NCBI GenBank assembly: GCA_003252455.1
Contig: QKED01000011.1
Location: forward strand, 124,001 to 188,000
Direction: 5' to 3'
DNA length: 64,000 nucleotides
Source: Gammaproteobacteria bacterium
GTDB lineage: Bacteria; Pseudomonadota; Gammaproteobacteria; Thiohalomonadales; Thiohalomonadaceae
In this document: positions 12,568-20,597 of the stretch, one piece after another
How positions within the stretch are numbered: position 1 is the first letter of the stretch
How the letters are laid out: the number at the start of each line of letters is the position of its first letter
Program-made: the position numbers and the translations under genes
Notes under the pieces: generated by a model
Told to the model about the DNA's origin: nothing
Seen by the model: only the letters and a program-made list of their open reading frames with translations
Database searches by the model: none

Positions 12568-15513
12568 TCAGTCGAGCCGGTCGAGGTGGTCGAGCAGACT
12601 CTGGAAGGCGTAGCGTTCCACCCGATTGCGTAGCTGCAGGGCGAGCTTGGGTTGTTCCTGCTCGATGTGCTCCAGCGCCTGATTGAGGCGGGTGGGGTTG
12701 CCGTGCATCAGCGCCGCACGCAGCTCCTCGCGCAGGGGTAGGGTGAGTGGTGTGAGGTCGAGCGGCTGCCCCTCCGTGCCCTCGTCGTGAGAGAAGCGCC
12801 AGCTGAGTGGCAGTTGCTGCTCCAGTAGGGCGAGCAGTTGCGAGGGCTCTACCGGCTTGGAGATGTGCCCGGCACAGCCGGCACTCCTGCACTGTTCTCG
12901 GTCGTCGTCAAAGGCGCGTGCCGAAACGGCGATGATCGGCAGATGCGGGCGCAGCTCGTGCAACTTGCGTGAGGCGGTAAGGCCATCCATCTGCGGCATC
13001 ACCAGGTCCATCAGCACCAGGTCGGGGGCACTGTAGATGGTGTGCTCCAGCGCCGCCGGTCCATCCTCGGCCTGATCGATGAGGAAGCCGAGCGGCTCTA
13101 GCAAGCAGCTGAGGATGGCGCGGTTGTCCGGCTGGTCGTCCACCACCAGGATGCGGAACGGGCTCTCCTGATGGTCGGTACGGTTGTAGCCGACGGCCCA
13201 CTCCAGCCCCAGACTGGAGCGCTCGCGACTGCTCGGACAGCTGCTCTGGGGGGCTGGCAGGCTGAGTTCGAAGCGGCTCCCCTCGTCCACCCGGCTCTCT
13301 ACCTTGAGTTGTCCCCCCATGCGTTCGATCAGCAGACGGCTCAGGGCCAGGCCGAGACCGCTGCCGTCGCGCTTGTACTTGGCGTCACCGGCGTGGCCGT
13401 AGGGGATGAAGAGGTGCGGGAGCTGGGTGTCGTCGATGCCGATGCCGGTGTCGCGGGTGACCAACTGTAGGGTCCCGTCACGGTAGCCCGCCTCCAGCGT
13501 CACCTCGCCCCGGGGGGTAAACTTCACCGCGTTGCTCAGCAGATGCTGCAGCACCTGGCGCAGGCGCTGCTCGTCCAACTCCAGACAGCGGGGTAGCGAC
13601 TCAATGCCACGTAGGTGAAACTGCAACCCCTTCTGGCGGGCGCGAAAGATGTACTGCTCGGCGACCTGGGCGATCAGCTCGTGTACATCGTGTGCCGCGA
13701 CCACCAACTCCATGCGCCCTGCCTCGATGCGCGATAGATCGAGCACGTCGTTGATCAGCTGCAGCAGGTACTCGCCGGCGTGTTGCACCGCGTTGAGCGC
13801 GCTGTGTTGATCGTGGTTGAGATTGCTCTCTTTGAGCAGCATGCGCGAGTAGCCGAGTACCGCGTTGAGCGGGGTACGCAGCTCGTAACTCATGTTGGCG
13901 AGGAAGTTGCTCTTGGCCTGATTGGCGGCGTCGGCCCGCTTGCGTGCCTCGGTCAGCTCGCGGGCGGACTCCTGCATCACGCTCACGTCACGAAACGCCA
14001 CGACCGCCCCGACCACCCCCTCGCTGCGGCGTACCACGCCGGTGGAGCGTACGCTCACCGGTAGGGCGCTGCCGTCCTGGCGCCAGAACAGCTCCTCCTC
14101 GTTGATGTAGATGTCGGAGTTGCGCGTGGTGCGCATGATGGGGCACTCCAGCTCATCCAGGTGGCTACCGTCCATGCGGTGGTGGTGGAACAGGCGGTGG
14201 GCCGACTTGCCCAGCAGGTGCGCGCGGCTGTAGCCGAGCAGGCGGCACGCCTCGTGGTTGACGTACTCGATAATGCCTTGGGTATTGACCACGTAGACCC
14301 CCTCGGCCAGGGTGTCGGTGATCTCGTGCAGGCGCTGCACCTGCTCGGCCAGTTCGCGCTTGTCGCGGTAGCGGGCGCAGAGCGTCTCCAGCAGTTGCCA
14401 CTCCAGGTAGGCGAGGATCATCAGCGAGACCAGCATGATGCCCCACTCTAGTCGATAGGTACCATCGAACAGGTTGGTGAGGGAGTAGGCGGGGAGTCGT
14501 ACCATCCCCTTCCAGTGGAACTCTTGCCAGGCGTGGTGGTGGTGGGGGGCGTCGTGGGTATCGGGGATGGCCCCCACCTGTCCAGAGGCGAGAGGGTAGA
14601 TGGTGTTGAAAAGGTAGAGGCTCTGGCCCGCCACCACCTGACCGTGGTCGGCCTGGTGGATGGTGGCCCATGCCTCGGGGTGGCGACGGGCGAAGCTCAC
14701 CTGCTGGTCGAAGCGAAAGCCCCAGGCCAGCTCCGGCTCGGGGCTCAGCAGCCAGTAACCCTCCGGGTTGAGGAGGACGGCGCGTTCGCCAGCGAAGTGG
14801 GCGGCAAAGTCGTCGAGCATGCGCTGGGCCAGATACTCCAGCACCAGGATGCCGCGCCGTTCACCCTCGCGGTTGTAGACCGCCATGGCCATCGACATCA
14901 GCGGCGTGAAGGGGTTGGTCACCACCCCCTGGTCGGTCTCCAGGTCGAGGTGGGAGACGTAGACCTCGTCCGGGTGGAGGGTCTGGGTGTTGTGAAAATA
15001 CTCCTCACGCGTCTGGTCGAGGAGCTGCTCACGCTCGACCACCCGCGGTCGGCCACCGGAGAGGTCGATGCGCAACCGCTCCCGTCCGCGCTCATCGACA
15101 AAGCGCACCCGATTGTAGATCCCCTTGTGAGTGACGAAGTTAAGCAGGTTCTCGGCCAGACGGCGGTAGCTCTCGTCGCTCTCGTGTGCAATGAATTCGT
15201 TGATCAGCGGGGTCTGGGTGATGACGTGTAGGTCTTCGATGGCGGCCTGGATACGCACCACGATCATCTGTGAGGCGAGCCTGAGGTTGGACTCCTGGCT
15301 CATGGTCTGCTGCTCCCAGGCCTGACGCGCCTGGATGTGCAGGGTGACGAGGGTGATGGCGAAGACCAGCAGACACGAGAGGCCGAAGAGACCGGCATAG
15401 AGCAGGCGCCGCTTGGACGAGGGGAGTTCGTACCAGCGTTCCGCGCTCAACACCTCGGGGAAGACCCCCTTGGCCATATCCGGTTGCTTCCGGCTCCGTT
15501 GTTGAGAGGACAT
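12568..15513 (-). CDS. Hybrid sensor histidine kinase with Tyr in place of the phospho-acceptor His
   Basis: 981 aa. TM1 at about 36-60; large periplasmic Cache-like sensor at about 61-353, with a His-rich loop at 318-335; TM2 at about 354-374; PAS at about 395-515; HisKA at about 530-600; ATPase at about 648-753 (N box with N661, DTGIGI at 688-693, GSGLGLALSR at 717-726); receiver domain at about 787-900 with acceptor D836 and SKPV lysine near 886. The H box reads MSYELRTPLN where kinases read MSHELRTPL: codon 543 is TAC, one base from CAC. ATP-binding and receiver residues are intact. Start ATG 15513 has CGGAG just upstream. Either a true pseudokinase or one base change or error. Confidence 0.9.
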   Translation of the reverse strand: MSSQQRSRKQPDMAKGVFPEVLSAERWYELPSSKRRLLYAGLFGLSCLLVFAITLVTLHIQARQAWEQQTMSQESNLRLASQMIVVRIQAAIEDLHVITQTPLINEFIAHESDESYRRLAENLLNFVTHKGIYNRVRFVDERGRERLRIDLSGGRPRVVEREQLLDQTREEYFHNTQTLHPDEVYVSHLDLETDQGVVTNPFTPLMSMAMAVYNREGERRGILVLEYLAQRMLDDFAAHFAGERAVLLNPEGYWLLSPEPELAWGFRFDQQVSFARRHPEAWATIHQADHGQVVAGQSLYLFNTIYPLASGQVGAIPDTHDAPHHHHAWQEFHWKGMVRLPAYSLTNLFDGTYRLEWGIMLVSLMILAYLEWQLLETLCARYRDKRELAEQVQRLHEITDTLAEGVYVVNTQGIIEYVNHEACRLLGYSRAHLLGKSAHRLFHHHRMDGSHLDELECPIMRTTRNSDIYINEEELFWRQDGSALPVSVRSTGVVRRSEGVVGAVVAFRDVSVMQESARELTEARKRADAANQAKSNFLANMSYELRTPLNAVLGYSRMLLKESNLNHDQHSALNAVQHAGEYLLQLINDVLDLSRIEAGRMELVVAAHDVHELIAQVAEQYIFRARQKGLQFHLRGIESLPRCLELDEQRLRQVLQHLLSNAVKFTPRGEVTLEAGYRDGTLQLVTRDTGIGIDDTQLPHLFIPYGHAGDAKYKRDGSGLGLALSRLLIERMGGQLKVESRVDEGSRFELSLPAPQSSCPSSRERSSLGLEWAVGYNRTDHQESPFRILVVDDQPDNRAILSCLLEPLGFLIDQAEDGPAALEHTIYSAPDLVLMDLVMPQMDGLTASRKLHELRPHLPIIAVSARAFDDDREQCRSAGCAGHISKPVEPSQLLALLEQQLPLSWRFSHDEGTEGQPLDLTPLTLPLREELRAALMHGNPTRLNQALEHIEQEQPKLALQLRNRVERYAFQSLLDHLDRLD

Positions 15514-16004
15514 GCTGTCTCCGTTTACCGGGTCCCAAGGCCCTGGACGCCCGTAGCGAGTGTAGGCAGAGGCCCGCAGCGGTCGGCAGGCTGAACAGCC
15601 CCGCGCTACGGGTAACAGGGCCCGATGAACAAGCGCAGAGTTTCCCACAGCCGGGCGCGTCGTGCACCGGGGCGGTGGGAAGTTGCGGGGCAATCGCCCC
15701 ACTTTTTGTCACAATGGACACAGGGGTCACAGAGTGCAACCCTGCTTGAGCAAGGGGGGGATAACGGTGGGCCGCTTGCGCCCATCGCCCTTCAACCGCA
15801 GTGACTCGTCTGCCCGCTGACGCCCCTCACTCGGTGCGCGTCTCTGTCTGTGTGGCGAGCGATCTCTGGTTTACCGGCGTTGGTGGTTACCCTGGGGCAA
15901 CAGACGGCGGGTGGCCACACATGCGGTGCTCCATATGCCTGCGGGTGGAAGGGCGCGATGCAACGGTGTGGCACCTCGCCCCCCGTTTGAGGCTACGTCC
16001 TGGG
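15514..16004. other. Intergenic region between the hybrid kinase and the AAA+ operon end
   Basis: 491 bp without a gene I can support; frames present are short and low-complexity. It must contain the promoter for the leftward hybrid kinase. A short stem GGGGC-AATC-GCCCC near 15687-15700, followed by ACTTTTTG, is a weak terminator-like element on the plus strand with no gene feeding it. Confidence 0.45.
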
Positions 16005-16505
16005 TCACTCCTCGGCGAGCAAGCGCTCGGCCATCCCCAGTACGACACTCCCGCCCACCTGGTCTTGTGGGTCCAGCTCGGCCAGGCGGGTGAGGGCAGC
16101 ATGGGCCTCGGCCACCTCCCCACTGCGCAGCAGCACGAAGCCGAGTGCCTTGAGGCTGTAGAGGTAGAGGCGGATAGCCCCGCTGGCGGGCGACCAGGGG
16201 GCGCTCTGCGGGGAGAGCTTGTGCCAATCGGGGTCGAATCCGGCGCTGGAGGCGGCGCGCTCCAGCGCCTCGTGGATCAGCCCCAGCGCCTCGGCGTGGC
16301 GGTTGCTGTAGGCGTACATCTTGTAGAGCGCCACCACCGGCTCCAGCCGCTCGGGGATCAGCGTGCGGGTATCGAGCAGCAGGCGCTCGGTGCGCGCCCA
16401 GTCCTGATGCACGTCCAGCTCGGAACGCAGCAGTTGCTGCAGGGCGATGGGCACCACCTCGCCCTTGGGGAGAGGAAATTCGTCGAACAGGTCGCGTAGT
16501 TGCAT
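16005..16505 (-). CDS. 166-aa helical (TPR-like) protein, last gene of the AAA+ operon
   Basis: Soluble, almost fully helical. Segments around residues 55-90 (ERLEPVVALYKMYAYSNRHA) and 115-150 (LKALGFVLLRSGEVAEAHAA) have the spacing of tetratricopeptide-like helical pairs, suggesting a protein-protein adaptor. No cysteines and no enzyme motif. I do not recognise a named family. It follows the GST gene by 42 bases on the same strand and is probably cotranscribed from the sigma-54 site at 19606-19621. Confidence 0.72.
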   Translation of the reverse strand: MQLRDLFDEFPLPKGEVVPIALQQLLRSELDVHQDWARTERLLLDTRTLIPERLEPVVALYKMYAYSNRHAEALGLIHEALERAASSAGFDPDWHKLSPQSAPWSPASGAIRLYLYSLKALGFVLLRSGEVAEAHAALTRLAELDPQDQVGGSVVLGMAERLLAEE

Positions 16506-16547
16506 GCAATGGACTCGTAAGGGGGCGAGTAGGGGGACGAGGGGCGC

Positions 16548-17174
16548 TCAGCGGTAGAGGCTGGCGTAGCCCTCCTCCAGCATCACCTGGCGCACGGCGG
16601 GGCGGCGTAGCAGGCGGCGAAAGTGCGCCTCGCACTCCATGGGCAGGGGGATGCCGATGTTGTCGGCCCAGAACTCCACGTAGAAGAGTGCGGCGTCGGC
16701 GATGGTGAAGTCGTTCTGGTGGCGCCCCTTGAGGCGGCCTGCGGCGATGGCGAAGCCCTCGGCCACCAGCTCACGACCGCGTGCCTTGATCGCCTTCTGC
16801 TCCTCCGGGTTAGAGCTGTACTGGTCGGTGGTGAAGATGCGCGTGAAGCCCTGGCCGTGGATGCGATTCACCGCGAGGTCCAGCAGCTCCAGGGTGGCCA
16901 GCTCCCCTTCGAGGTCATCCGGCAGCAGCTTGCGTCGGGGGTGGGCGCGGGCCAGCCACCAGGCGATGGACAAGAAATCGGTGAGGGCGGTGCCATCTTC
17001 CCGCACCAGCGTGGGAATCGTACCCTTAGGGTTGAGGGCGCGATAGTCGGGCGTGTTGTGGTCACCCGCCATCAGGTTGACCAGGTGCGCCTCGAACACC
17101 AGCCCGCACTCCTCTAAGAGGATGTGGATGCCGGTGCTGCACGAGCCGGGGGTCATGTAGAAGCGCATGGTCAT
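16548..17174 (-). CDS. Glutathione S-transferase family protein
   Basis: 208 aa. N-terminal thioredoxin-like domain with YMTPGSCSTGIHILLEECG near residues 6-24, where beta-class GSTs have a catalytic Cys/Ser; NPKGTIPTLV near 50 carries the cis-Pro; TALTDFLSIAWWL near 66 is the glutathione-binding turn; helical C-terminal domain with FTIADAALFYVEFW near 155. The ATG at 17174 overlaps the NifX-like stop (ATGA), so the two are translationally coupled. GST-family genes are known next to nif genes in several diazotrophs, but the substrate here is unknown. Confidence 0.87.
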   Translation of the reverse strand: MTMRFYMTPGSCSTGIHILLEECGLVFEAHLVNLMAGDHNTPDYRALNPKGTIPTLVREDGTALTDFLSIAWWLARAHPRRKLLPDDLEGELATLELLDLAVNRIHGQGFTRIFTTDQYSSNPEEQKAIKARGRELVAEGFAIAAGRLKGRHQNDFTIADAALFYVEFWADNIGIPLPMECEAHFRRLLRRPAVRQVMLEEGYASLYR

Positions 17175-17515
17175 CTGCGCCCCTCCAGCCATGCGGCTAT
17201 CGCCTCGTCGATGGTCATCCAGCCGTAGGCGTCCACCGCCTCGACACCGATGGCGGCGAGCTTGTCGCGCGGGCCGTCGCCGATCTTGGCGACGAAGACC
17301 GCCTGGCAATCCTTCACCGCCTCCAGGATGCCGCTCAGGGCGCCCTTGTTGGAGCTGCCGCCGAGGCAGTAGTGCTCCACCTGGCGCTGCTCCAGCAGCG
17401 TCGGCGTGCCGTTCTCCACGGTGTAGATCCAAAACTGCTTGGCGTGGCCGAAGTGCTCGCTCACCGCCAGCCCCTCCTGGCTCGCGATGGCGACGCGTAG
17501 GGTCTCACTCATCAT
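17171..17515 (-). CDS. NifX/NifB C-terminal-like (dinitrogenase Fe-Mo cofactor biosynthesis) domain protein
   Basis: 114 aa single domain. VAIASQEGLAVSEHFGHAKQ near 8-27, LEQRQVEHYC near 41-50 and VFVAKIGDGPRDKLAAIGVE near 73-92 follow the NifX/NifY/NifB-tail fold that binds FeMo-co or NifB-co precursors. It is not NifX proper, because nifE/nifN are not adjacent. Cysteines at about 50 and 70. The start is one of two tandem ATGs (17515 or 17512); AGGAG upstream fits the second better. Overlaps the 122-aa gene by 11 bases and the GST gene by four. Related domains also occur in proteins unrelated to nitrogenase, so the link to nitrogen fixation is inference. Confidence 0.85.
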   Translation of the reverse strand: MMSETLRVAIASQEGLAVSEHFGHAKQFWIYTVENGTPTLLEQRQVEHYCLGGSSNKGALSGILEAVKDCQAVFVAKIGDGPRDKLAAIGVEAVDAYGWMTIDEAIAAWLEGRR

Positions 17516-17873
17516 CCTGCTCCTGGTTGAACGGCACTGTGTCGAATAGGCCTTCTGCGCGGATCCACGCCTTGAAGCCCTTCATCACCGGGCGCGAGAT
17601 GCGGCTCTCGGCCAGTACGCGCTCCTCGTAGATGCGGCGGCGGGTCTCGTCGTCCAGGTTGTCCCGGCTCTCGGCGATGAGCTGGTGGCTCTCCGCCCCG
17701 AGCAGCTCGCCCGGCAGGTGCTTAACCTGGTCGTAGAGGGCGGCCATCACCACCTTCTCCTCCAGGTCCATCTTGCACTTGCCGTCGAGGATCTTGAGCA
17801 TCACGGCGGTGGCGCAGTCGACCTGCAGCGGCTCGAAGGGGTGGGCGGTGCACCAGTCGGCAAGAGCGCTCAT
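17505..17873 (-). CDS. 122-aa protein of unknown function in the AAA+/NifX operon
   Basis: Acidic and helical, with three cysteines in the first third (residues 8, 20, 33) within WCTAHPFEPLQVDC and DGKC. The spacing could bind a metal or cluster but is not a known motif. The middle (residues 40-90) is charged and helix-forming; the tail ends in QEQDDE. I recognise no family. Its ATG overlaps the AAA+ stop (ATGA) and its end overlaps the NifX-like start, so it is tightly embedded in the operon and likely a partner of one or both neighbours. Confidence 0.78.
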   Translation of the reverse strand: MSALADWCTAHPFEPLQVDCATAVMLKILDGKCKMDLEEKVVMAALYDQVKHLPGELLGAESHQLIAESRDNLDDETRRRIYEERVLAESRISRPVMKGFKAWIRAEGLFDTVPFNQEQDDE

Positions 17874-19573
17874 GGATCACCTCCCGTGTCCATGCCCCGG
17901 AAGATGGAGCAGCGCTGGAACACCTCCATGCTCGGTTCTACCTGCTTGTGGTGGCAGTACTTGGCGGTGAGTTTGGCCAGCCCCTTGATGTCACGCCCGC
18001 TCGCCTCGACGAAGGTCGCGGCCAGGGTGTCGAGCATGGCGGCATCGAGGTCGAGGCCGAACTGTTCGGCCATCACCGCCCAGATGCGCCTCCGGTCGTC
18101 GAGCCCCGGCGGGTGGTAGCGAATGAGGGCGATGCAGCGCGAGACGATCGCCTCGTCGATGTCGCCGACGCGGTTGGTGGTGAGAAAGAGCAGGCCGTTG
18201 AAGTATTCGAGCACACGCAGGAAGACGCCGACCACGGCGTTGGCGGCGATGTTGTCGTCGCGCCGCTTGATGTAGACGTCCGCCTCGTCGATCAGCATCA
18301 CCGCGCCCCAGCGCTGCGCGCGGGTGAGGGTGTTCTTCAGCGCCACCTCCATCTGCGCCACGTCGAGGCCGAGCTGACCGGAGTGGACGCGGTAGAGCGG
18401 GCGCTTGATGATCTCGGCGTAGACCTCGGCGGTGAGGGTCTTGCCGACCCCGGCGGGCCCGGCGCAGAGCACCGTGGTGCCGCCGGACTTGCCCTCGACG
18501 ATGTCGTCCATCAGCAGGTCCATCTCGGCGGTGAGGATGTCGATGAGGTCGGTCTGCTCCGGCGGCAGCACCAGCTTCTGCTTCAGCTCGGGCTGGTATT
18601 CGTAGGGGCGCATGTCGTCCACGTGCACCCAGAGGTGGTGGTGCAGCTCCAGGTGGAACATGAGGATGTAGGCGTGCACCGGCAGCTGGGTGAAGAGGCC
18701 GTCGGGCAGGTTCTCGGCGATGCGCTCCAGGGCCGCCTCGACCTTGTCGTCGTAGCTGCTGCTGCGCCCCGCCTTGCGCAGATATTTGGCGAGGAACTCG
18801 CCGGAGCTGTCGAGGGTGAGGTCGCGCTGCTCCAGCACCGCCTCGTCGTTGACCAGGCGTGCCCAGCCACCGCCCGAGGAGAGCACCACGCGCTCCTTGC
18901 GCGTCCAGTCGGTGCCGCGATGGGTGGCACTCGGGTCGTCGGCGTAGATGCCGGTGCCACGCCCGGAGAACTGACGGCTGTAGTCGGCGCGCCAAGCGAA
19001 GTAGCGCTCGGCGGCGCGGTCGTAGTCGGCGATCAGCGCCTCGGTCTCCTTCACGTAACCGGCGGCGGCGAAGATCTCCGGCAGGTTGCGCCCGAGGATG
19101 TCGCGTTCGCGGATGATCAGCGTGGAGGTGACCACCTTGCCCACCGAGTTGGCCTTGAGGTCGAGCAGGATGCGCCCCGCCTCCTCCTCGCCGGGCGGGG
19201 TGTAGTCGAGGCGCAGCACCAGATAGGGCAGCGGCTTGGCCGCCGCGTTGAGGCGAAAGAGCCAGCCGCGCTGCGCACCGCTGACCAGATACTCCGCCAG
19301 CAGCGGCAGCACCTGCTCCAGCTCCCCCTCCTCGAAGCGTCGCCCCTGGTCCGCCACCGCCGCCGTGAGGGTGGCGATCTGCGCCGCCCGCCCGGCCCAG
19401 TGTGGGCCGCGCTCCAGATAGTGCTGATGCAGGTAGTCGAGCTGCTCGGCGCTGAGGGTGGTGAAGGGGGTCTCGGCGCGGTTGCCGAACTTGAGCTGCT
19501 CGGCCAGGGGTTGCAGCTCTGGGTAGCGGGCCACCAGGGCCTCGACCTGGGGGCGTTCGATCTGGAGTTTCAT
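17870..19573 (-). CDS. AAA+ ATPase, first gene of a sigma-54-linked operon
   Basis: 567 aa. A long N-terminal region (1-340) has no recognised domain. The AAA+ core spans about 345-540: Walker A GPAGVGKT at 372-379, Walker B VMLIDEAD at 425-432, sensor 1 TTN at 465-467, arginine finger R479 in IVSRC, small helical lid after 490. The active-site set is complete, so it should hydrolyse ATP and may remodel or load a partner, as CbbQ/NorQ or ClpX-type AAA+ proteins do for metalloenzymes; this role is inference. Start ATG 19573 lies about 20 bases downstream of the start site predicted from the -24/-12 promoter. ATGA overlap with the next gene. Confidence 0.88.
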   Translation of the reverse strand: MKLQIERPQVEALVARYPELQPLAEQLKFGNRAETPFTTLSAEQLDYLHQHYLERGPHWAGRAAQIATLTAAVADQGRRFEEGELEQVLPLLAEYLVSGAQRGWLFRLNAAAKPLPYLVLRLDYTPPGEEEAGRILLDLKANSVGKVVTSTLIIRERDILGRNLPEIFAAAGYVKETEALIADYDRAAERYFAWRADYSRQFSGRGTGIYADDPSATHRGTDWTRKERVVLSSGGGWARLVNDEAVLEQRDLTLDSSGEFLAKYLRKAGRSSSYDDKVEAALERIAENLPDGLFTQLPVHAYILMFHLELHHHLWVHVDDMRPYEYQPELKQKLVLPPEQTDLIDILTAEMDLLMDDIVEGKSGGTTVLCAGPAGVGKTLTAEVYAEIIKRPLYRVHSGQLGLDVAQMEVALKNTLTRAQRWGAVMLIDEADVYIKRRDDNIAANAVVGVFLRVLEYFNGLLFLTTNRVGDIDEAIVSRCIALIRYHPPGLDDRRRIWAVMAEQFGLDLDAAMLDTLAATFVEASGRDIKGLAKLTAKYCHHKQVEPSMEVFQRCSIFRGMDTGGDP

Positions 19574-19605
19574 CGGGGGCTCTCTTGCGGCGACAGGGAG
19601 TCATA

Positions 19606-19621
19606 AGCAAGAGCGGTGCCA
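19606..19621 (-). promoter_or_regulatory. Sigma-54 (-24/-12) promoter for the AAA+/NifX/GST operon
   Basis: Read leftward, the site is TGGCACCGCTCTTGCT. It has GG and GC exactly 12 bases apart, and both elements (TGGCAC, TTGCT) match the RpoN consensus. It lies 33 bases before the AAA+ ATG. I saw no TGT-N10-ACA NifA site in the next ~100 bases upstream, so the activator is unknown. Confidence 0.75.
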
Positions 19622-19719
19622 CGCCTAAGTCATTGAAAGCCTAACCTCGATGAGGCAATCCCGACAATACAACTATGGCACGCTGGTAGGGCGGATAAGC
19701 GCAGCGTCATCCGCCGCTA

Positions 19720-20556
19720 TCACCGAGTCCCTCGGCACTTCGGATACTGACAACAGCCCCAAAACTCACTCCCCGCCCGCTCACCGCGACGCACCGTGCG
19801 CCTGACCATCGCCGAGCCACAATGCAGGCAACGCGGCGCGGCCACTTCCGGTGCAGATTCTGTTGGGGCCGGTTTGGTCACAGGTGGTCGGGCTGGCGCT
19901 TCCGGTGGCGGCGAAGGCCTGGACCGAGCCTTACGCTCACGCAGGTGGGCGACATGCTCACGGTGGGTACGCAGCGTCTCCGGTTTGTGTACCCTCTCCA
20001 GTGTTTTGACAATCGCCTGTTGCTCGGCAGCGCTGATAATCACCGTTTGGAACGCCTCGATATAGTCGGCGAGCGCCGCTAGCCGCAGCACATTACCCGG
20101 CAGCTCGGTCTTGAACTCGTTGTTCCCGACAAAGACCACGATGGAGTGGAGCTGGGTGGATGCCAGTTCGAGCAGTGTCTGCAACGTCTGGGTATGTTTG
20201 TAGTTCTGGTGCAGCGGGTTTTGGAAACGTTGGGTGTGGCGGTAGTACTTGCGTGTCCACTGCTTTTGGCGCGCACCACCGAAGATCCAGCCGCTCATGT
20301 TCTTGGTCTCGATGACGAAGAGGCCGTAGGGGGAGACCAGCAGGTGGTCGATCTGTGTGGTGCCGTCGGCGGTGGGTAGGGTCAGGTTGGTGAGCAGTCG
20401 GTAGTCGGGTCCGAGGTTACGCCGCAGATAGTGGTTGACTTTGCGCTCGCCGAGCCAACCGCGCACCACCGGGAGCGTGAGCAGCTGGGAGATGAGCACC
20501 AGCGGGATGAGCAGATAGAGGTAGTTGATGATGTCCAGGTAGGGGGCGAGGTGCAT
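19720..20556 (-). CDS. NERD-domain protein with C-terminal topoisomerase-type zinc finger
   Basis: 278 aa. N-terminal transmembrane helix (about 8-30), then a NERD nuclease-related domain at about 35-150 with WLGERKV, IDHLLVSPYGLFVIETKN (nuclease-like D/ETK core) and QNPLHQNYKH. A Pro-rich linker at about 205-235 leads to a single zinc ribbon CLHCGSAM ... CCQYPKCRG. NERD proteins are thought to process DNA or RNA; direct activity is often unproven. I start at the ATG at 20556, with AGGA seven bases upstream; an in-frame ATG at 20574 adds six residues. The first gene of an accessory patch next to an IS remnant. Confidence 0.82.
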   Translation of the reverse strand: MHLAPYLDIINYLYLLIPLVLISQLLTLPVVRGWLGERKVNHYLRRNLGPDYRLLTNLTLPTADGTTQIDHLLVSPYGLFVIETKNMSGWIFGGARQKQWTRKYYRHTQRFQNPLHQNYKHTQTLQTLLELASTQLHSIVVFVGNNEFKTELPGNVLRLAALADYIEAFQTVIISAAEQQAIVKTLERVHKPETLRTHREHVAHLRERKARSRPSPPPEAPARPPVTKPAPTESAPEVAAPRCLHCGSAMVRRTVRRGERAGSEFWGCCQYPKCRGTR

Positions 20557-20597
20557 GAGGCCGTCCTTTGGCATAGCTGGTGGTATGTGTCTCGGCG

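Follow-up and report, generated by a model that had tools for sequence, protein, structure and literature searches.

An AAA+ ATPase gene set tied to nitrogenase genes, with a NifX-like protein, in a Thiohalomonadaceae genome

Nitrogenase assembly is, to our knowledge, usually drawn as a scheme of Nif scaffolds and carriers without a dedicated AAA+ motor. Among these proteins, NifX ligates the NifB cofactor (NifB-co) through His35 in cryo-electron microscopy structures (PMC13128457), and NafY holds His121 within an HFG motif (PMC8496260). Here, we describe an operon of five genes on a 64 kb stretch of a gammaproteobacterial assembly (GCA_003252455.1, contig QKED01000011.1, positions 124,001 to 188,000), referred to as the window in the following. 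The genes encode an AAA+ ATPase, a protein of 122 amino acids (aa), a NifX-like protein, a glutathione S-transferase (GST) and a TPR-like protein (Table 1). They are leftward and tightly packed, as an initial annotation made from the sequence had described them, with overlaps of 4, 11 and 4 bases from the AAA+ to the GST gene, followed by a gap of 42 bases between the GST and TPR genes. The gene set very probably belongs to nitrogen fixation, and its AAA+, 122-aa and GST families are firmly tied to nif genes. Each domain class is already known, and AAA+ helpers of metalloenzymes are the known class in which we place the set. Relative to the open literature searched, however, the nif-restricted AAA+ clade with its partner set is new, since no description of it was found there (subscription papers and preprints lay outside the search).

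The initial annotation had tied the operon to sigma-54 and to some metallo-cofactor enzyme. Co-occurrence, gene neighbourhoods, NifA-type sites and a conserved cofactor-ligand histidine now identify this enzyme as nitrogenase. Co-occurrence with nif genes, which had been put forward as a check, was complete among the 52 AAA+ carrier genomes tested: nifH scored over the cut-off in 46 of them, and the remaining six contained nifB, nifK or nifN-type genes. The close relatives of the AAA+ protein comprised 79 loci, mostly at 55–74% identity. Because the carrier list might be biased, we sampled 370 Gammaproteobacteria evenly (completeness of 90% or more, 36 nifD-positive, the window's own genome left out). 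The close AAA+ protein was present in seven of these genomes, all nifD-positive, the 122-aa family in eight, seven of them nifD-positive, and the nif-type GST in nine, again all nifD-positive (hypergeometric P of 5e-8, 4e-7 and 3e-10, respectively, with kinship ignored). Another genome of the draw (G214) held a distant AAA+ relative alone (281 bits) and was not counted among the seven. The sole exception for the 122-aa family was genome G283, in which the gene lies near GrxD/BolA and isc-type genes (locus L131, contig G283:C37) and in which no nifB, nifD or nifK was detected; either a nif cluster was lost or the protein has another role there. A further sample, 182 genomes centred on an Alphaproteobacterium, contained one carrier, the centre itself, and was uninformative.

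The window was correctly described as free of nif structural genes, none being found within the 64 kb. Other contigs of the same assembly carry nifH, D, K, T, B, N and X, a NafY-like gene and nifA, so the genome is that of a diazotroph, with the operon located away from its main nif genes. The end of contig C88 holds nifH and the start of nifD, and C103 holds the remaining nifD, nifK, nifT and the NafY-like gene; nifD was seemingly missing in one profile count because it is evidently split over these two contigs. Furthermore, nifB is located on C30, nifN and nifX on C49, and NifA (672 bits) on C44.

In other genomes, the AAA+ gene was repeatedly found inside or beside nif clusters (L020, L071, L081, L083, L088, L092, L095 and L114–L118). 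In Variovorax (L081) the order is nifHDK-AAA+-nifEN with a NafY/NifX-type gene, and L116 reads nifHDKT-NafY-nifEN-nifX-ferredoxin-TPR-AAA+-122. At L117, GST-122-AAA+-NifX-like shares its strand with TPR, ferredoxin, nifX, nifN and nifTK, while L020 combines NafY-AAA+-GST with nifTKDH. On the nif plasmid of Methylococcus EFPC2, the AAA+ locus follows nifV-nifW-ferredoxin-TPR-GrxD-BolA, and L021 (AAA+-GST-TPR) resembles the window minus its two middle genes. Physical linkage of the 122-aa gene is seen at L132, with nifHDKTY, a NifX-type gene, the 122-aa gene and nifEN. Within 4 kb of the AAA+ gene, counted over 61 loci with enough flank, a GST was found 13 times, the 122-aa protein 10 times, a PF02579 domain six times and a TPR protein five times. 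With regards to conserved gene order, the initial expectation held in part: the gene set is kept, but the exact five-gene order occurs in the window only, with partners shuffled or absent elsewhere.

Further genes recur at these loci. In most of 22 loci (e.g. L056:8641-9993), the gene immediately upstream of the AAA+ gene encodes a 4Fe-4S/CCG-domain oxidoreductase, and at L118 and L114 families of 79–83 aa and an FAH-family protein adjoin the AAA+ gene. Several nif clusters (L118:15079-15381, L095, L114 and L144) contain a separate family of about 100 aa just ahead of the nif-type GST; as a relative of the 122-aa protein it was rejected by eye.

The perfect -24/-12 element reported earlier was recovered 32 bases before the ATG of the AAA+ gene and is the sole perfect match on both strands of the window. 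The 300 bases ahead of 78 orthologous AAA+ genes were then scanned against shuffled controls (100 rounds). Exact TGT-N10-ACA sites occurred in 30 of the 78 regions versus 3.1 in shuffles, -24/-12 sites with at most one mismatch in 12 versus 0.4, and NifA-type and sigma-54 pairs at plausible spacing in 14 versus 0.05 (maximum 1), the regions not being independent because related species were counted separately. Judged from these motifs, the operon is probably driven by sigma-54 and NifA.

The active site of the AAA+ protein is complete as first described, with Walker A (GPAGVGKT) and Walker B (LIDEAD) present. PF00004 scored 56.8 bits, and Walker A, Walker B, the sensor-1 Asn and the Arg residues are largely invariant in 40 sequences; the pore-loop region, HSGQLGL, is by eye without the usual aromatic residue. 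The N-terminus indeed matched no Pfam model over the curated cut-off before residue ~350. Its ~330 residues are reasonably to well predicted, with block values of the predicted local distance difference test score (pLDDT) mostly at 74–95 and weaker at ~211–230; the AAA core is poorly modelled, with a pLDDT below 50 over most of 350–467. A Foldseek search with this model against the PDB returned nothing at E ≤ 0.001, the listed matches being other AAA+ proteins. His300 and His311 are common to the nif clade and its plasmid and phage relatives. His307, invariant in the nif clade, and His312 (95%) are missing from the four plasmid/phage relatives examined, as are 20 other residues invariant in the nif clade. 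A metal or cofactor role for the histidines of the nif clade is only a suggestion from this pattern. An anti-phage reading (IetA, TRIP13) was rejected, as the matches were weak and covered the AAA core only. The broader AAA+ family includes 157 plasmid records (78 from Citrobacter) and the Bacillus jumbo phages AR9 and PBS1, and some of these members are annotated as 'ATP-dependent protease', though their relative in the window has no protease domain.

The NifX-like protein was confirmed as a lone NifX/NifB-tail domain (PF02579 at 1e-22, 80.6 bits versus a cut-off of 26.3). Its nearest NCBIfam model is the NifB tail (94 bits), and it shares 35% identity with the NifB of the same genome. An assignment to NifX itself was rejected (TIGR02663, 51 bits versus a cut-off of 112); the genome's own NifX also stays under this cut-off, at 100 bits. 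His20 lies in an HFG motif, is invariant in 13 aligned rows, and aligns with His35 of NifX and with His121 of NafY. The genome encodes five PF02579 proteins, and the fifth (L113:6676-7047, contig G000:C71) has HAG instead of HFG and a His-rich tail. For the 122-aa protein, three early cysteines had been pointed out; across the family, C20 and C33 never vary, whereas C8 does. Its predicted structure consists of six helices (pLDDT 90.5); neither Pfam nor NCBIfam assigned it to a family, and its model matched no PDB fold at E < 3.7. The beta-class-like character of the GST stood, with 1a0f and 1pmt as relatives, and a TGA inside the GST genes of genomes G302 and G291, considered as selenocysteine, proved to be a normal stop codon close to the C terminus. 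The TPR-like protein has one repeat, barely over the cut-off.

With the AAA+ protein encoded next to a cofactor-binding domain, a role in handling the nitrogenase cofactor, or the protein that hosts it, is suggested. We infer that ATP drives the remodelling of nitrogenase or of a maturation protein when cofactor is transferred or repair takes place. Our leading, still tentative reading is an accessory nif operon in which a remodeller and a carrier aid the insertion, exchange or stripping of cofactor. The AAA+ protein would act as a hexamer that remodels its client with ATP, and the N-terminal region specific to its clade may grip NifDK, NifEN, NifH or another nitrogenase component or maturation protein. 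By opening or pulling this client, it would allow cofactor to be inserted, exchanged or stripped, while the NifX-like protein might hold NifB-co or the iron-molybdenum cofactor (FeMo-co) through His20. The 122-aa helical protein could serve as an adaptor, the GST could provide glutathione or thiol chemistry, and the TPR protein could form a connection with Fe-S proteins encoded in the nif cluster. A narrower version is less likely: a dedicated motor with a private NifX-type carrier would open nitrogenase or NifEN, so that cofactor is inserted, exchanged or salvaged at the expense of ATP.

Several observations weigh against cofactor handling by the complete set. None of the other four families lies near the AAA+ gene at 36 of the 61 loci, and a NifX-like partner is rare. 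Plasmids and jumbo phages also carry the AAA+ architecture away from nif, which leaves room for a generic role in protein handling. In the window, the activator site is degenerate, with one mismatch, and lies nearer to the sigma-54 site than in the other pairs. Moreover, the AAA+ gene is missing from 29 of the 36 nifD-positive Gammaproteobacteria and is therefore not a required cofactor step. As it alone is constant and was found in eight of 37 nif-positive Gammaproteobacteria with the own genome included (~20%), the set is best described as an optional accessory, and this distribution favours an enhancing or rescuing role. Since most diazotrophs lack the set, it would increase yield, or rescue nitrogenase under some condition, and would not form an essential step.

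A role in repair after damage has almost the same probability as one in assisted insertion. The AAA+ protein would then clear or refold nitrogenase or Fe-S proteins damaged by oxygen or redox stress, the GST would remove oxidised thiols or electrophiles, and the NifX-like protein would salvage the cofactor set free. This is a real possibility, given that the commonest AAA+ neighbour is a GST whose active site has a thiol motif, that the set is optional, and that Rieske, rhodanese, GrxD/BolA and 2Fe-2S proteins are neighbours at some loci. The carriers also belong mostly to aerobic or microaerobic genera (Methylomonas, Xanthobacter, Zoogloea, Bradyrhizobium and Thiothrix). However, the aerobic bias does not discriminate, as a haem-copper oxidase is present in 36 of the 37 nif-positive genomes, carriers or not, and neither Pfam nor NCBIfam found a protease domain in the proteins; the label 'ATP-dependent protease' (phrog_29662) was rejected on this ground. 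It is improbable that a generic AAA+ chaperone merely travels with nif by horizontal transfer and co-regulation, without a nitrogenase client. Relatives at ~40% identity do occur on plasmids and in phages AR9 and PBS1 in unrelated contexts, but a long, fully supported branch divides the nif clade from them (the program warned of long-branch effects), and the clade was always found together with nif genes. In addition, the AAA+ gene often persists at a long distance from the nif genes, as in Bradyrhizobium BTAi1 and Methylomonas LW13, which is not expected from passive linkage. A regulatory role of the NifX-like and 122-aa proteins, sensing cofactor or iron status instead of transferring cofactor, is very unlikely: some NifX family members without the histidine are regarded as placeholders or antagonists (PMC13128457), but His20 is retained here, and Pfam assigned a DNA-binding domain to none of the five proteins.

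If a motor with a private NifX-type carrier does open nitrogenase or NifEN, an energy-dependent step of cofactor handling is missing from the standard nif assembly scheme. The nif-restricted AAA+ clade, the 122-aa family and the nif-restricted GST suggest that the maturation or repair of nitrogenase includes a layer not yet studied, and this could matter for building nitrogenase in plants. The usual models of nitrogen fixation, Azotobacter and Klebsiella, were not among the carriers returned by the 79-locus search, and this may be why the clade was overlooked. Direct testing is feasible in culturable carriers such as Methylomonas, Bradyrhizobium BTAi1, Xanthobacter and Zoogloea.

The operon is flanked by two genes on the same strand. 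Directly upstream lies a gene for a NERD (nuclease-related domain) protein carrying a zinc ribbon at its C terminus (19720-20574, -), outside the nif set, and downstream a large hybrid sensor kinase (12568-15702, -) with a bacterial sensor domain, PAS, HisKA and a receiver.

Table 1. Features of the operon, in window coordinates.
Feature	Position	Strand	Remark
AAA+ ATPase, 567 aa, nif-associated clade, ~340-aa N-terminal region without known domain	17870..19573	-	
122-aa all-helical protein, invariant C20 and C33, without Pfam or PDB relative	17505..17873	-	
Free-standing NifX/NifB-tail domain protein (PF02579)	17171..17515	-	His20 counted from second Met, 17512
Beta-class-like glutathione S-transferase, nif-associated clade	16548..17174	-	
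TPR-like protein, 166 aa	16005..16505	-	Relative of TPR protein adjoining Shethna-I-type 2Fe-2S ferredoxin in nif clusters
-24/-12 (sigma-54) promoter element TGGCACCGCTCTTGCT	19606..19621	-	TGGCAC-N5-TTGCW
Degenerate NifA-type upstream activator site TGT-N10-TCA	19651..19666	-	One mismatch; weak; consensus TGT-N10-ACA

For comparison with known systems, the MoxR activators CbbQ and NorQ, to which the AAA+ protein had first been likened, share with it that the AAA+ protein is encoded with, and presumably acts on, a metalloenzyme system. The analogy nevertheless chose the wrong AAA+ branch and a MoxR-type assignment was rejected: the best Pfam model is the classical PF00004 (Msp1/VCP/PAN-like), the best PDB relatives are VCP-like proteins, Msp1 and 26S Rpt, and none of the other four genes encodes a VWA domain. 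The jumbo-phage and plasmid AAA+ proteins (phrog_29662) match its architecture over residues ~85–561 at ~40% identity, but show no nif linkage in the contexts viewed. The GST shares fold and SC motif with the beta-class enzymes E. coli GstA and Proteus PmGST, but falls into a distinct set, which within the 370-genome sample was confined to diazotrophs. Finally, the NifX-like protein has the PF02579 fold family, the HFG motif and the ligand histidine in common with NifX, NafY and the NifB C-terminal carriers; unlike these, it is free-standing, not fused to the radical-SAM NifB, and its gene lies away from nifEN, encoded together with an AAA+ protein.

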